The position numbers and the translations under genes are program-made. Shown in pieces: positions 6,531-64,000 of a DNA stretch of 64,000 nucleotides. This stretch comes from Oscillatoriales cyanobacterium M59_W2019_021. Its GTDB lineage: Bacteria > Cyanobacteriota > Cyanobacteriia > Cyanobacteriales > Geitlerinemataceae. Numbering within the stretch: position 1 is the stretch's first letter; each line of letters begins with the position of its first letter. The notes beneath the pieces were generated by a model. The model saw only the letters and a program-made list of their open reading frames with translations, was not told the origin of the DNA and searched no databases. Location of the stretch: the NCBI GenBank assembly GCA_015295945.1, contig DVED01000065.1, forward strand, positions 1 to 64,000. Reading direction: 5' to 3'.

Positions 6531-6581
6531 TTTGGGGTTTGGGGTTAGGAGTTTGGGGTTTGGGGTTTGTTAGGGGTTAGT
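6531..6581. repeat. Heptanucleotide tandem repeat (TTTGGGG type)
   Basis: Imperfect tandem TTTGGGG/GGTTTGG units, the STRR class of cyanobacterial repeats. Similar tracts lie near 10930, 14139, 35917, 39770, 40172, 50476 and 63330. It sits just upstream of the helicase start codon. Confidence 0.7.
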
Positions 6582-22696: not shown

Positions 22697-22885
22697 CATC
22701 TGTTTGGAACAGAGATGATCGGGTGAGGACTGGTAATGGGTAATGGGTAATGGGTAGGTAATAGACATCTGGAGGAAATCAAGAAAGACCCCTCTCCAAA
22801 CCTCTCCGGGTAATTGTTTGTGCGTTTCGTGCCTCAACACCCCCTACCAACCTCAAACCCCCAACCCCCAACCCCTCTTCAAGAT

Positions 22886-26261: not shown

Positions 26262-28898
26262 GTGACTGAAGCGAAAACCTACAAGGATACCGTCAACTTG
26301 CCCCAGACTGGGTTCGATATGCGGGCAAACGCCGCCAAACGCGAACCGGAAATTCAGAAGTTCTGGGAAGAACGCCGCATTTTTGAAACGGTATCCCAGG
26401 AAAATCCGGGAGAACCGTTTATCCTCCACGACGGACCGCCCTATGCCAACGGGTCGCTGCACTTGGGTCACGCCCTCAACAAGATCCTCAAAGATATCAT
26501 CAACCGCTACCAACTGCTGCGGGGGCGCAAAGTCCGCTACGTCCCCGGTTGGGACTGCCACGGTTTGCCCATCGAACTGAAAGTCCTACAAAACCTCAAA
26601 TCCAAAGAACGCCAAGCACTAACGCCCCTCACCCTGCGCCAAAAAGCCCGCGAATTTGCCCTCAAAGCTGTGGACGAACAGCGCGAAAGCTTCAAGCGGT
26701 ATGGGGTGTGGGGCGATTGGGACAACCCCTATCTCACCCTAACTCCCGAGTACGAAGCGGCACAAATCGGCGTCTTCGGAGAAATGGCGCTGAAGGGGTA
26801 CATCTATCGCGGACTCAAACCCGTGCATTGGAGTCCCAGTTCGCAAACGGCACTGGCAGAGGCGGAGTTGGAATATCCCGAAGGTCACACGTCTCCCAGT
26901 ATTTACGTTGCTTTTCCCGTGGTGGGAACTCAACCCACTCAAACCAAACTGGCAGAATATCTCCCCTACCTCCACGTTGCTATCTGGACGACGACGCCGT
27001 GGACGCTCCCTGCCAACTTAGCCGTCAGCGTCAATCCCGATCTCACGTATGCTGTGGTGGAAGCGGGATTGGAGTTTGAACCTGCTGCCGGGAAATTCCT
27101 GCTGGTGGCGGCGGAAGCGGTGGAACGGTTAGCCGCCACCTGGGGAACCGAACTCACCGTTCTGACAACGATCGCGGGGAAAGACTTAGAACATTGTACC
27201 TATCGCCATCCCTTGTTCGATCGCACCAGCGAAATCGTCATCGGCGGCGATTACGTGACCACGGAATCTGGAACGGGGTTGGTACATACCGCACCGGGTC
27301 ACGGGTTGGAAGACTATCAAGTGGGGTTGCGTTACGGGTTGCCGATTTTATCCCCCGTGGATGCCAAGGGTAATTTTACGGAAGAGGCGGGGCAGTTTGC
27401 CGGGTTGAACGTCCTCAAAGATGCCAACGACGCCATCATCCAGGCGTTGCAAGCGGGAGGATTTCTCTTGAAACGAGAGCCTTATCTGCATAAATATCCC
27501 TACGATTGGCGCACCAAAAAACCCACCATCTTTCGGGCGACGGAACAGTGGTTCGCTTCGGTGGAAGGGTTCCGAGATGCGGCACTGCGAGCCATTTCCC
27601 AAGTGCAGTGGATTCCGGCACAAGGGGAAAATCGGATTACTTCGATGGTGCAAGAGCGCTCGGATTGGTGCATTTCCCGCCAGCGCAGTTGGGGCGTGCC
27701 GATTCCGGTGTTCTACGACGAGGAAACTAACGAACCCTTGCTCAACAAAGAGACGATCGATCGCGTCCGTTCGATTATTGCTGAAAAGGGGTCTGATGCC
27801 TGGTGGGAGCTGTCGGTAGAAGAATTACTCCCCGAATCTTACCGCAACAACGGTCGCACGTACCGCAAAGGCACGGATACGATGGATGTCTGGTTCGACT
27901 CCGGGTCGTCTTGGTCGGCAGTGGCACTAGAACGGGGTTTGGGATATCCGGTGGATGTCTATTTAGAAGGTTCCGACCAGCATCGGGGTTGGTTCCAATC
28001 CAGTTTGCTAACCAGCGTGGCAACCAACGGTATTGCCCCCTACAAAACCGTATTAACCCACGGGTTTACCCTGGACGAAAAGGGCTACAAAATGAGCAAA
28101 TCCTTGGGGAATACGGTCGATCCCGCTGTGGTGATTAATGGGGGCAAGAATGCCAAGCAAGAACCCGCTTACGGGGCAGATGTGCTGCGGTTGTGGGTGT
28201 CTTCGGTGGACTATTCTGCGGACGTTCCCCTGGGGCAAACGATTCTCAAACAGATGGCGGATGTGTACCGCAAAATTCGCAATACGGCGCGATTTTTGTT
28301 GGGGAATTTGCACGATTTCAACCCGGCAGAACACGCGGTGTTTTACGAAGATATGCCGGAGTTGGATCGGTATATGCTGCACCGAATGACGGAAGTGTTT
28401 GCCGAAGTTACGGAAGCATTCGATACCTATCAGTTTTTCCGGTTTTTCCAAACGGTGCAAAATTTCTGCGTGGTGGATTTATCGAATTTCTATTTGGATA
28501 TTGCTAAAGATCGGCTGTATATCAGCGCGGAAAATGCCCAACGCCGCCGCAGTTGCCAGACGGTACTGGCGATCGCCCTGGAAAATCTCGCCCGCGCGAT
28601 CGCTCCCGTATTGTGCCACATGGCAGAGGATATCTGGCAGAATATCCCCTACGAAACCCCCTGCGAATCGGTGTTTCAAGCGGGTTGGGTCCAAGTGGGC
28701 GACTACTGGAAAAATCCGGAACTAGCGAAGAAATGGGAAACGTTGCGCTTCTATCGCTCGGAAGTTAATAAAGTGCTAGAAAAAGCGCGGACGAATAAGG
28801 CGATCGGCTCGTCGCTGGATGCGAAAATCTTATTATACGTTAGCGATCCCGAACAGCGATCGATCCTCGAAAATCTGAATTCAACCCATAACTCATAA
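26262..28898 (+). CDS. ileS: Isoleucyl-tRNA synthetase, main body, separated from its C-terminal zinc domain
   Basis: 878 residues from GTG 26262. Class I signature HLGH at 67-70 within [18 protein letters not shown]1 editing domain (about 190-400; [11 protein letters not shown]), KMSKS at about 609-613 and the anticodon-binding helical domain to the end. Bacterial IleRS of this type normally has about 950 residues and ends in a Cys4 zinc domain. Here the frame stops after [12 protein letters not shown], just where relatives run into DNGVDELRYLFL-type sequence. That tail is found at the end of the next frame. A 7-bp tandem duplication, CATAACT CATAACC (28886-28899), causes the shift: removing one unit fuses the two frames into about 1,295 codons. 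Confidence 0.92.
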
Positions 28899-28911
28899 CC
28901 TATTAAAACCC

Positions 28912-30156
28912 ATGGAACCAAAATACAACCCCAACGATCGCCCCTCAACTTATCAAGTTAGCGAAATTGTCGATCGCGTTGTCGAATTTCTAGCAGAAGC
29001 ACCGAGTATCCTCGCCTATGGTTGGAAGACATATCGCCGTCCCATTGTCAATGTGGCGATCGTTCTGGCTTTACTGTCGGCGATCGTCGCCATTTTTGAT
29101 TTCATCGAATCGGTCAACCATCTGATCTTGATCCCAACGTTATTTACAGTACTAGGAATCGTCCAAGCGTTACGATTTGCCTATCGCAACGTCTTGTTTG
29201 CCAAAGATCGTCAGAAGTTATTGCAGCAAATCAGATCGGTTAAAAAAGAGTTAATCGGTTCGAGTTCGATTCCCTTGTTAGAGTCCGATCGAGCCATCGA
29301 AGTTCAGGCGATCGCCGTTGAAGAACCCGCATCGATCGAGCCTCCTGTCATCGTTGAGGAAACCGCAGTCGAGGAGATCTCTCCAGAAGTTGAAGCCGTA
29401 CAAACGGCGGAAGATACCAACGCGGTTTTAGTTCCCGAGGAGATCGAAACCCCAACAGAATCCGAACCGATCGAAGATTCGCTTCCCGAAGTTCTCCCTC
29501 CGGAAGTTGCCGCTATTTCGGTCGAAGAAGAAACGACTTTAAACCCCGAACCGCTGACAGAAACGACGATTGGGGAAGAAGATGAGATCGTCGGCGAAAC
29601 CGAACCAGAAGTTGCCTCTTCAGATGCCGAAAGTTCGAGCGAAATCGCTGTCGAACCCACAGCAGAAACAATTGAAACCGTCGAAGAAGTCAAAGAAATT
29701 GTCGAAGCGGCGATCAGCGATGCTGACGCTACCGAAGAGAACAAAACAGAGTCCAATGCTCGAGGTTTTCAAAAAAAAACTCCCAACGAAAGCCCAAAAA
29801 AAAGCGGCGATAAAACGGAAGGAGTCGTAATAAAAAACACTCCCTTAGAAACAACAGAAACGCCAAGTTCGATCGCCTCTACCCCTGCATCTTTAGACGA
29901 TCTATTATTCTACACCAATGGTGTAGACGAACTGCGCTATCTCTTCCTCAGTTCTCAAGTTGAATTACTCGACTCTCCTGAAAAACTGGAAGGATTAACC
30001 TACAGCCAAAAAACAGAGACTTTCGGTATTGGCGTCGTCAATGCCGAGGGAACTAAATGCGAGCGTTGTTGGAATTATTCAACCTTTGTCGGCAAATCCA
30101 GCGAGCACCCCACGTTGTGCGATCGGTGTATCGCTGCCCTCAACGGGAAATTTTAA
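28912..30156 (+). CDS. ileS: CAAD membrane domain plus acidic linker plus IleRS C-terminal zinc domain
   Basis: 414 residues in the frame following the ileS stop. Residues 1-100 form a CAAD domain (cyanobacterial aminoacyl-tRNA-synthetase appended domain) with two transmembrane helices (about 44-64 and 70-90), which anchors synthetases to membranes. A highly acidic, Glu/Val/Thr-rich low-complexity linker fills about 110-320. Residues 324-414 are the missing IleRS tail: TNGVDELRYLFLSSQVELL and zinc ligands Cys383, Cys386, Cys403 and Cys406. ATG 28912 lacks a Shine-Dalgarno, and the frame is open upstream to the 7-bp duplication. Either a separate trans-acting subunit or the 3' part of a frameshifted single gene. 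It ends overlapping the convergent cyclase gene by 4 bp. Confidence 0.88.
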   Translation: MEPKYNPNDRPSTYQVSEIVDRVVEFLAEAPSILAYGWKTYRRPIVNVAIVLALLSAIVAIFDFIESVNHLILIPTLFTVLGIVQALRFAYRNVLFAKDRQKLLQQIRSVKKELIGSSSIPLLESDRAIEVQAIAVEEPASIEPPVIVEETAVEEISPEVEAVQTAEDTNAVLVPEEIETPTESEPIEDSLPEVLPPEVAAISVEEETTLNPEPLTETTIGEEDEIVGETEPEVASSDAESSSEIAVEPTAETIETVEEVKEIVEAAISDADATEENKTESNARGFQKKTPNESPKKSGDKTEGVVIKNTPLETTETPSSIASTPASLDDLLFYTNGVDELRYLFLSSQVELLDSPEKLEGLTYSQKTETFGIGVVNAEGTKCERCWNYSTFVGKSSEHPTLCDRCIAALNGKF

Positions 30157-32513
30157 GACTTACAAGCCTCGTATTGTTGTTTTAAAAAAACTTCTACTTC
30201 TGGCAGCGAAGACGTTAAACCGATGTAGAACTCCGTTTCATTTCGAGCGGATTTCTTCCGCACTTTACCGTAAAATTCGCCATCGGAATTTCCGTTATAT
30301 TTCGGATCGACGATCGCAAATCGAAGATTGCTCAACGGAGAAACTAATGCAAGAGATCGAACGAGCGCACTATGATGTCCCAGTTCGACAACCTCCCCGT
30401 CAAATAGGGTATCGCTAACGTGTTTGCCATCTAAAATCGCAAACTTGACGGCGATCGCCTCTGGCAAAGCTACCAAAATATCTTCTTCTTTTTTCAGGAA
30501 AAGATCGTGCTTGCCACCAATTCCGGCGATCGAATAAATCGTAATCGGTTTCTTTACCCCTTTGGGCGACACTTTTTGCTCGTCGTCAATTTTAACGATA
30601 TCTTTCACGAATTCGAGGGTGGACTCGCTAATTAAAATTTGTCCCCCCTCCGTGTAGGATTCGATCCGATAAGTCAAATTCACTTCCCGACCGACAACCC
30701 CGTATTTCGTCCGCTTCAGCGAACCAATATTACCAACCACCACTTCACCCGTATTAATCCCGATCCCCATTTCCAATTCCAGATCGAACTCCTTCATTTT
30801 GCGGTTCACTTCGGTCATCGCCAACTGCATCGCCACTGCACAAGCGACAGCACGTTCCGGGTCGTCCGGACGGGGAACCGGCGCCCCAAACAGCACCAAA
30901 ATACCATCCCCCATAAACTCGTCGATCGTTCCTTGATAGGCAGTAATCACATTCGCCATCGCATCCAAGTAAATATTAAGAATGGAGACCACTTCTTTGG
31001 CATCTTTGCGTTCGGCAGTTGAGGTAAACCCGCGCAAATCCGAAGTAAGGATGGTAATCGTGCGTTTTTCTCCCCCCATTTCCAAGCCTTCCGGCGTTTC
31101 CAAAAGCGTCGCCACCACTTCGTCGGTGAGATAGCGACTGAAGGTTTTGCGGATCTCGCCTGCCGTTCGCGCCACGTAAGCAGTAATCACCCCCACCGAA
31201 CTGGCTAACGCCAACGCTGGCGGCACGACGGGAATCCACCATCCCCCCAAAAAGGCAACGTAAGCAATCCCCCCTAAACCCCCCAAAACCATCATCGGAG
31301 GCAAAAATTTAACAACGCCTTTGGCATATCGCCACTGCCAACTTAAAATCGCACCCGCAGTCGAAGCTACCAGAACCCACAGCCACTCGACAGGATCGGA
31401 CCAAACTTTAATCAGCGTTCTGCCGTCGAGGGTCGCACTTAAAATTTGGCTAGTGAGATTGGCGTGAATTTCTACCCCACTCATTCGATCGGATACTGCT
31501 GTGGTACGGTCCTGTTTCTGCCAAAGTGTACTCAACCACCGCAATCGACGAAAACCTTTCCAGTTTTTATTCGTTCCCCGTGTATAAGGTGTATCCAAGT
31601 AATCGTTGAGACTGGGTGCAGTGGAGCCAATGAGTACGATGCGATCGCGAAATAAATTCGAGGGAATTTTATTGTTGAGAACTTCTTGGAGTTCGACAGT
31701 TTGGAAACTAGCAGTCGGTCCTCGATAGTTCAATAACACTTGATAGCCCGCATCATCCGCACGAACATATCCGCCGTCATTAGTAGAAAACACGGGAAAA
31801 ACAGCCGTTTTAAATCTAACCCACTCCTCTTTTTCCGTGACATCTGGAACGATTCCTTCTTTCTCTAAGTAGAGCATGGCTAACCGAAAGGCTAAACTCA
31901 GCACTGTATCGCCGGTTTGAGTATCTTGGAGGTAGAACAAACCGCGACGAACTTTGAGATCTGAATCTCGAGGAATATCGTTAGAGGCTACTCGATCGAG
32001 TTCTTTGAGTAAAGGCGGTGCTGCCACTCGTCCATTGCCATCATTATCTGCGGTAATCTTTTCAATTCCGATTAAATTCTCGGTAGTCTTAAAGACATCC
32101 ATCAAACTTTCATAGCCCGGTTCGATCGGTACTTTTCGATCGAGCAAATTTGGATTTTTACGAAAGGTTTCAACCAGGCTATCGTAGTTAGGTGGAACGG
32201 GAAGGTCGCGATAAATATCCAAACCGATCACCCTCGGTTGTTGTTGTTTTATTTTGTTGAGAGCATCCGCTAACAGGCGATCGGAAATGGGAAAATTATA
32301 AGTTTGTAAATCTTTTTCGGAAATGCCAACAATTACAATGCGATCGTCGGGTTCTTCCTGTGGGCGCCAACGAACCAGTTGGTCGAAAGCCCACAGTTCG
32401 GCTCCCTGCAACAACCCCAGCCCGCGAATTAACAGCACCAATCCAGCCGCACTGGGAGCAGCAAATAACACGCCTCGCCACTGCCAAATCTGTCGTTTAA
32501 GTTTTGCCCACAT
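30153..32513 (-). CDS. CHASE2-domain adenylate/guanylate cyclase
   Basis: 786-residue membrane cyclase: one N-terminal helix (about 15-35), an extracytoplasmic CHASE2 sensor (about 36-365) and a three-helix bundle (about 374-460). The class III catalytic domain (about 480-660) has metal Asp residues in TSDLRGFTS and DEFMGDG, and the Asn/Arg pair in VGREVNLTYRIES. A Lys in KRTKYG suits adenine recognition, so cAMP is the likelier product. A beta-rich C-terminal extension (about 670-786) may be PilZ-like. It lies downstream of two DUF928 genes on the same strand; CHASE2 and DUF928 genes often neighbour each other in cyanobacteria. Its ATG is immediately preceded by TTAGTTG-type heptamer repeats. 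Confidence 0.92.
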   Translation of the reverse strand: MWAKLKRQIWQWRGVLFAAPSAAGLVLLIRGLGLLQGAELWAFDQLVRWRPQEEPDDRIVIVGISEKDLQTYNFPISDRLLADALNKIKQQQPRVIGLDIYRDLPVPPNYDSLVETFRKNPNLLDRKVPIEPGYESLMDVFKTTENLIGIEKITADNDGNGRVAAPPLLKELDRVASNDIPRDSDLKVRRGLFYLQDTQTGDTVLSLAFRLAMLYLEKEGIVPDVTEKEEWVRFKTAVFPVFSTNDGGYVRADDAGYQVLLNYRGPTASFQTVELQEVLNNKIPSNLFRDRIVLIGSTAPSLNDYLDTPYTRGTNKNWKGFRRLRWLSTLWQKQDRTTAVSDRMSGVEIHANLTSQILSATLDGRTLIKVWSDPVEWLWVLVASTAGAILSWQWRYAKGVVKFLPPMMVLGGLGGIAYVAFLGGWWIPVVPPALALASSVGVITAYVARTAGEIRKTFSRYLTDEVVATLLETPEGLEMGGEKRTITILTSDLRGFTSTAERKDAKEVVSILNIYLDAMANVITAYQGTIDEFMGDGILVLFGAPVPRPDDPERAVACAVAMQLAMTEVNRKMKEFDLELEMGIGINTGEVVVGNIGSLKRTKYGVVGREVNLTYRIESYTEGGQILISESTLEFVKDIVKIDDEQKVSPKGVKKPITIYSIAGIGGKHDLFLKKEEDILVALPEAIAVKFAILDGKHVSDTLFDGEVVELGHHSALVRSLALVSPLSNLRFAIVDPKYNGNSDGEFYGKVRKKSARNETEFYIGLTSSLPEVEVFLKQQYEACKS

Positions 32514-39921: not shown

Positions 39922-40146
39922 TTAGGGTGTTTGCTGGAGTTCGGGGCGTTCTTCGTCAACGATCGCCCCTTCGACGGGACAAACTTGCAGGCAAATCCCG
40001 CAATCGATACAGGTCGAAAAATCGATCCAGTACCAATCCGTTCCTTTGGTATTTTTTCCCGGTCCTTCGTGAATGCAGGCAACGGGACAAGCATCGACGC
40101 AATCGGCGACGCCTTCGCAAGTGTTGGTGACAATGGTATGTGGCAT
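39922..40146 (-). CDS. Bacterial-type [4Fe-4S]/[3Fe-4S] ferredoxin
   Basis: 74 residues from ATG 40146 (MPHTIVTNTCEG). Motif 1 gives Cys10, Cys16, Cys20 and Cys24 (CEGVADCVDACPVAC), with wider spacing than the classic CxxCxxC. Motif 2, CIDCGICLQVCP, gives Cys46, Cys49, Cys52 and Cys56. It should carry two clusters, probably 7Fe or 8Fe type. A soluble electron carrier with unknown partner. The ATG is directly preceded on its strand by ATTACCC heptamers, with no Shine-Dalgarno. Confidence 0.9.
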   Translation of the reverse strand: MPHTIVTNTCEGVADCVDACPVACIHEGPGKNTKGTDWYWIDFSTCIDCGICLQVCPVEGAIVDEERPELQQTP

Positions 40147-40205
40147 GGGTAATGGGTAATGGGTAATTAGAGTTTGGGTTTTGGGGTTTGGGGTTCGGGG
40201 TTTGA
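40147..40205. repeat. GGGTAAT and TTTGGGG heptamer tracts
   Basis: Three GGGTAAT units (40147-40169) abut the ferredoxin start codon and run into an imperfect TTTGGGG tract to about 40203. Both repeat types sit side by side. Confidence 0.75.
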
Positions 40206-60596: not shown

Positions 60597-60601
60597 GGTT
60601 T

Positions 60602-60666
60602 GGGTAATGGGTAATGGGTAATGGGTAATTGGTAATGGTGCGTTTCGTTCCGGTGGCACTCCCTAC
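60602..60666. repeat. GGGTAAT heptamers followed by a family D repeat
   Basis: About five GGGTAAT/GGTAAT units (60602-60637) abut GGTGCGTTTCGTTCCGGTGG (60634-60666), the same pairing as at 12893 and 25373. It lies next to the start codon of the peptidase. Confidence 0.8.
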
Positions 60667-62363: not shown

Positions 62364-62417
62364 AATAGTGGTTAGTTGTTAGGGGTTAGTTGTTAGTTGT
62401 TCGCGACTTATTACCGA

Positions 62418-64000
62418 TTACCCATTACCCAAAATCAACCGTTTCCGATGCACTTTTAACAATCGAAATTCTTGCCCGGAAACCTGTTCTAGCATTTCCA
62501 AAACTTGACTGGGACGGAGGAGATTGCCATCGTTGCGGCAACTGCCGAGATAGCGCAATTGGAAAGCATGGGGAGTCTCGGATTCGAGGCGAGATAAGGT
62601 AAATAACCGCTCTCGCAAATTCACCTGTTGTTTCCGCCCCGATTTAGTTTTGCGTTCAGTCCAGATTTCCTCGGTGGCGAGAATGTCGGCAATCCAAGCG
62701 TCGATCCGCCCTAAATCGGGCATTTCGCCTTCGGTATCGATCGTTAGGTCATATTCAGCCTTTTCTAGCAATTGCGTGGCTGTAGGAGCCTGTAAATCCA
62801 CGGATTCGACACGGTATAGGGGGAGATCCACAGGGAGTTGCGCGGCGAGTTTCTCCCCAAATTCCTGGGGTTCCATTTCCTGGGTTAACTCGAATTCGAT
62901 AATTTCTCCGGTACTGGTGACGCCGAGGGAGAGGGCGTTGGCGGGAAGAATCCGGGGTCCGGGGTGGAATCCTCCGGTAAAGGCGATGGGAATGGCGGCA
63001 CGACGAATGGCGCGATCGAAAAGTTTGGCGAGGTCTAAATGACCCACCCGTGCCATATCCCCTAATTTGCCGTACTCCACTCGCAGGCGTTGAACTCGGT
63101 GGGTTGGGGGGGTAAACTGTCCCTGAAATTGGGGGATTGGCGGCGGCGGCAGGACGATATTGTGACCGAAATCGGGGGTACACACGCCGCAGTGGGAGCA
63201 TCCTTCAAAGGAACAGTCGGGGACAGTGGCTTCTTCTAAGGCGCGTTGTAGGTCTTCTTGCAGCCATTTTTTGTCGATTCCGGTGTTGAGATAGTCCCAG
63301 GGAAGGGGTTGGTCTAACGGGTTGGAGTTTGGGGTTTGGGGTTTCATCACGTTCCATTCCCCGTTTTCCACTTGGCGATATTTCCAAGTTAAATTCGATT
63401 CGTCGATCGCCTGGTTCCACGCCGCAAATGCCCGATCGAGGCTTTCCCACCAGGAATCCATTCCCGCACCCAATTCCCAGGCACGGCGCAAAACTGAAGA
63501 TAAACGCCGATCGCCTCTGCCGACAAAATCTTCCATTGCCGAAATTCTCACGTCGGTAAAATTCGCTTTCACCCCGCGCATTTTCCGGAATTCTTGTCGC
63601 AATAAGTCTTGTTTGCGGCGGAATTCGGCAGTGGAAACCGAGTGCCATTGGAAGGGGGTATGGGGTTTGGGGGTGAAGTTGGAAATAGTGAGGTTTACGT
63701 TTAATCGTTTGCGGTTGGGGGCGCTGCATTCTTGTTGCAACCAACGGACGGTTTCGGCAATGCCAATGACATCGGCATCGGTTTCGCCGGGAAGTCCGAT
63801 CATGAAGTAGAGTTTGACTTTATCCCAACCGCGATCGTACGCCGTTTTCACGCCGCGTAAGAGTTCTTCGTCGGTGAGTCCTTTGTTGACGATATCCCGC
63901 ATTCGTTGGGTTCCGGCTTCGGGAGCGAAGGTTAAACTTCCTTGGCGCGTTCCTCCGAGAATATCGGCAATATTATCGTCAAATCGATCAACCCGCTGGC
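62418..64000 (-). CDS. TIGR03960-type radical SAM protein fused to DUF2344 (C-terminal part; 5' end outside window)
   Basis: At least 527 residues; the frame is open to the window edge, so the CxxxCxxC cluster of the radical SAM domain lies outside. Visible are the end of the SAM barrel (SLTFAPEAGTQRMRDIVNKG, LYFMIGLPGETDADV, NLTISNFTPKPHTPFQW), a DUF-type middle with CSFEGCSHCGVC, and a C-terminal DUF2344 domain (about VEYGKLGDMARVGHLDL onward). Such fused proteins are conserved in cyanobacteria and other bacteria, with proposed tRNA- or ribosome-linked roles that are not settled. The tail ILGNG and stop derive from a heptamer repeat. Confidence 0.92.
   Translation of the reverse strand, partial: QRVDRFDDNIADILGGTRQGSLTFAPEAGTQRMRDIVNKGLTDEELLRGVKTAYDRGWDKVKLYFMIGLPGETDADVIGIAETVRWLQQECSAPNRKRLNVNLTISNFTPKPHTPFQWHSVSTAEFRRKQDLLRQEFRKMRGVKANFTDVRISAMEDFVGRGDRRLSSVLRRAWELGAGMDSWWESLDRAFAAWNQAIDESNLTWKYRQVENGEWNVMKPQTPNSNPLDQPLPWDYLNTGIDKKWLQEDLQRALEEATVPDCSFEGCSHCGVCTPDFGHNIVLPPPPIPQFQGQFTPPTHRVQRLRVEYGKLGDMARVGHLDLAKLFDRAIRRAAIPIAFTGGFHPGPRILPANALSLGVTSTGEIIEFELTQEMEPQEFGEKLAAQLPVDLPLYRVESVDLQAPTATQLLEKAEYDLTIDTEGEMPDLGRIDAWIADILATEEIWTERKTKSGRKQQVNLRERLFTLSRLESETPHAFQLRYLGSCRNDGNLLRPSQVLEMLEQVSGQEFRLLKVHRKRLILGNG

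Follow-up and report, generated by a model that had tools for sequence, protein, structure and literature searches.

A putative fission of a CAAD-containing isoleucyl-tRNA synthetase gene within heptamer-repeat DNA of a cyanobacterium

The isoleucyl-tRNA synthetase (IleRS) locus of Oscillatoriales cyanobacterium M59_W2019_021 (Geitlerinemataceae; assembly GCA_015295945.1) lies on contig DVED01000065.1, of which positions 1 to 64,000 (hereafter the window) were analysed, and comprises two reading frames on the same strand. The first of these, the ileS core (26262..28898, plus strand), starts with GTG, encodes 878 aa and ends with a TAA stop at 28896-28898. It contains the class I catalytic and editing domains and the anticodon-binding domain of IleRS (Pfam tRNA-synt_1 and Anticodon_1; PF00133, PF08264), matches TIGR00392 with 1028 bits, thus scoring as ileS without the tail, and ends five residues past the conserved Asn at the end of the core (N873). 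A search of the genome for IleRS revealed no second copy; the other matches, at 27-40% identity, are to pieces of related synthetases.

The second frame encodes a CAAD-zinc protein of 414 aa (28912..30156, plus strand) and is shifted by +1 relative to ileS (frames 0 and 1 modulo 3). Its ATG, 13 nt after the ileS stop, is the first ATG, GTG or TTG of that frame, which is nevertheless open for 11 codons above it (open frame of 425 aa). The protein begins with a CAAD domain of two hydrophobic helices (29023..29259, plus strand; residues 38-116; PF14159, 59.7 and 55.8 bits), whose hydropathy maxima fall in 19-residue windows starting at residues 44-50 and 71-72, and these predicted helices suggest that the protein resides in a membrane. 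An acidic linker of 219 residues with a net charge of -47 follows (29260..29916, plus strand), and then the IleRS zinc tail (29917..30153, plus strand), which carries zf-FPG_IleRS (residues 382-407) and, at positions 383, 386, 403 and 406, the only cysteines of the protein; its C-terminal residues match the tails of the solved IleRS structures PDB 1ffy and 8c9e. The frame and Pfam assignments and the cysteine positions thus uphold what a preliminary description had read from this DNA, namely that ileS stops at 28898 after 878 codons without its Cys4 tail, and that the tail ends the next frame behind a CAAD two-helix domain and an acidic linker. Downstream, a convergent gene of 786 aa (30153-32513, minus strand), which by eye we take to encode a CHASE2/adenylate cyclase-like protein, shares 4 nt with the CAAD-zinc frame at the latter's stop, tail to tail.

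The two frames meet in a spacer array (28883..28913, plus strand) of four degenerate AACCCAT-like heptamers, namely AACCCAT (28883-28889), AACTCAT (28890-28896), AACCTAT (28897-28903) and AACCCAT (28907-28913). The ileS TAA arises at the boundary of one unit with the next, and the fourth unit ends with the AT of the CAAD-zinc ATG. The heptamers CATAACT and CATAACC do stand back to back as previously noted, at 28887..28900 (plus strand) rather than 28886-28899. Because the frames are one base apart and the CAAD frame is open above its ATG, a 7-base difference would join them, in agreement with the earlier proposal. The accompanying claim of a single 7-bp duplication without any other change is not supported, given the unequal units, the degenerate array and the altered length of both linkers (below). 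The tandem pair is identical at 6/7 positions, the longest lag-7 identity run at the junction is 6 bases, and an exact 7-bp repeat occurs in no register; therefore, this is not a fresh slip. Identical copies would be expected from fresh, phase-variation-like slippage or from a copy-number error of assembly, whereas these units differ by one base.

The genome's habit of heptamer repetition, also raised in the preliminary description, is evident outside genes. Tandem heptamers with at least 6/7 identity start at 0.39% of coding versus 2.6% of noncoding positions of the window (about 7 times commoner outside genes), and 0.16% of coding versus 1.9% of noncoding 31-mers contain four AACCCAT-like units, frequencies that serve as guides and not as formal p-values because the array was noticed before testing. 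The junction spacer thus resembles the arrays of intergenic type. As a separate observation, intergenic tandem heptamers in the window include TTTGGGG, GGTAATG, TGGGTAA and ATGGGTA, for example at 6531-6569, 22732-22756, 40145-40204, 60601-60638 and 62366-62431.

CAAD inserted between the IleRS core and the zinc tail has already been described, in 11/279 species (PMC4893482). Within the family, ileS forms one frame of 1135-1239 aa with CAAD included in each of the ten other members whose tail is legible, so the comparison with close relatives called for earlier finds the fused CAAD there; G008 and G003 (contig ends) and G013 (no ileS match above related synthetases) were left out of this set. 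A recognisable zinc tail was found in 143 of the 155 sampled genomes of the class, and among 114 loci with a complete tail the only split one is the ileS described here. No second natural fission was detected in the family, in the class sample, in the families rich in CAAD-IleRS (f9, f2, f32) or in an order-wide survey confined to the best matches among those listed, and no report of a split IleRS was found in the literature searched.

The short ileS frames inspected elsewhere reflect contig ends, one N-gap or frame errors in the catalytic core. Twelve candidates run into contig ends, and wherever their tail can be read it is in frame (G335, G309, G374, G319, G008, G214, G463, G464, G437, G449, G452, G170); in G326, G396 and G446 the frame changes sit in the core, and in G443 an N-gap coincides with the frame change. 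In G326, ileS lies on a 3.05-Mb cyanobacterial contig (C1:544300-548800) and its frame changes at about query residues 218-279, by sequence error or damage, while the G446 gene (C217:16200-21400) runs through three successive frames, as is typical of an error-rich assembly. The IleRS of G150 (C31) has lost most of its front linker and is fused all the same; this protein of 1048 aa has also lost the first part of CAAD and has a rear linker of 6 residues, leaving a reduced CAAD module.

Both linkers of the split locus differ from those of the 33 fused relatives in which they were measured. The front linker, between core and CAAD, amounts to 35 aa (30 from the Met plus 5 of the core) versus 42-91 aa in the fused relatives and 60-88 aa in the family members measured, the shortest of the set with an intact CAAD. 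The rear linker of 219 aa, against 6-85 aa, is the longest by 2.6-fold. These differences point, without proving it, to a split that is not brand-new and to a tether that changed along with it, although linkers evolve fast and their lengths may have nothing to do with the split. Divergence of the zinc tail relative to the core (dZn/dCore) is 1.74, within the 1.28-1.90 of fused relatives, and indicates no relaxed constraint; a recent or artefactual break would also leave the constraint unrelaxed.

The split is known from one genome assembly, the single member of its genus among the genomes compared, and an error of one base at any point of the roughly 20 nt shared by the two frames would have the same appearance as fission. 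A break due to sequence or assembly error, or to a mutation that arose recently in the culture that was sequenced, with the gene otherwise fused, would accord with the fused state of every intact relative, with the unrelaxed constraint on both halves and with the ileS frame errors of public assemblies noted above. Those errors, however, lie in the core or in gaps, whereas the break here is confined to roughly 35 of about 1300 codons (~3% of the gene) in an inter-domain linker. It was proposed earlier that the break separates the CAAD/zinc module from the synthetase, and both products indeed end cleanly at domain borders; the junction is the one place where both keep whole domains. Further, the genome is listed as 99.99% complete and 0.01% contaminated, and of 42 orthologue pairs compared with one relative, drawn from sampled stretches of the genome plus the window, ileS alone is frame-broken. 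Because the repeat copies are unequal, the overlap holds no homopolymer longer than three bases and the other 41 orthologues are unbroken, we regard an error or culture mutation as possible but unlikely.

Our best reading is that the ancestral CAAD-inserted IleRS gene of this lineage probably did undergo fission where the core adjoins the CAAD/zinc module, that this event is not brand-new and that it yields two cooperating polypeptides. Of the three options raised earlier, we thus favour a two-polypeptide IleRS over copy-number variation between cells or an assembly error. In place of most of the relatives' front linker, this locus has heptamer-repeat DNA of the intergenic kind, which provides both the in-frame TAA that ends ileS and, 13 nt further along, an ATG for the other frame. 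Translation of a single transcript would then yield two proteins, the second through termination-reinitiation or direct initiation; no Shine-Dalgarno-like sequence is apparent by eye before the CAAD-zinc ATG, and no consensus match to an internal promoter was found before that frame. The putative products are an unanchored core and a membrane protein bearing the zinc domain.

Alternatively, the ribosome might join the frames and make some full-length IleRS, by +1 frameshifting at UCA-UAA-C or by a 7-nt hop from CAU to CAU or AAC to AAC. Around the stop, the repeat does place matching codons at a distance of 7 nt, and no stop interrupts the CAAD frame in the overlap. Yet the junction RNA is unstructured, with no stimulatory structure (z = 0.03), no recognised slippery motif is present, and the site is not conserved, since relatives need no recoding. 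Such a bypass would also be inefficient for an essential enzyme, and is improbable unless the split forms work as well; overall, we give it little weight.

Under the fission reading, the zinc domain on its 219-residue acidic tether would dock on the core in trans and complete tRNA(Ile) binding. It could instead be argued that the core, in which no catalytic, editing or anticodon domain is missing, suffices as IleRS by itself, and that the CAAD-zinc protein is either a novel membrane protein in its own right or a remnant. The zinc tail with its four Cys is, however, conserved as in fused enzymes and widespread in the class, and E. coli IleRS requires its zinc tail; we consider a self-sufficient core very unlikely. 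More tentatively, and with somewhat less than even confidence, fission may have produced a two-part IleRS, a soluble core plus a membrane-anchored zinc/tRNA-binding subunit, in which a protein contact, and not a covalent anchor, brings tRNA(Ile) charging to the thylakoid membrane.

Essential synthetases seldom undergo natural fission. CAAD-IleRS is already known, and what would be new is its split form. If real, the split has separated the enzyme from its anchor and zinc module, making the purpose of membrane anchoring of cyanobacterial synthetases directly testable. It also suggests intergenic heptamer repeats as a route to cutting genes: because 7 mod 3 = 1, the units of a heptamer array that contains TAA place stops in one frame after another.

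Shiba and Schimmel reportedly found in 1992 that artificially cleaved E. coli IleRS reassembles in vivo, an indication that IleRS can function when divided in two, although the break was engineered and not natural. Leucyl-tRNA synthetase of Aquifex aeolicus consists of two subunits (Xu et al., 2002, J. Biol. Chem. 277:41590, as cited in PMC9976931) and is likewise a class I synthetase, normally one chain, divided in two. As cited there, it is a different enzyme without a membrane anchor, and its two-subunit assembly was shown biochemically, whereas for the split IleRS we infer it. As in a split synthetase, two genes here together make one ancestral enzyme. The CAAD-containing IleRS-C of cyanobacteria (PMC4893482) shares the domain order core, linker, CAAD, linker and zinc tail, CAAD lying between core and zinc tail in both, but is a single polypeptide, whereas the stop at 28896-28898 and the frame change leave two frames on DVED01000065.1, the front linker being short and the rear one very long. 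CAAD is homologous to the CURT1/CurT thylakoid curvature proteins (PMC4893482), which, unlike the CAAD-zinc protein, have no acidic linker or zinc tail. The genome also carries one stand-alone CAAD protein, with a frame length of 180 aa.
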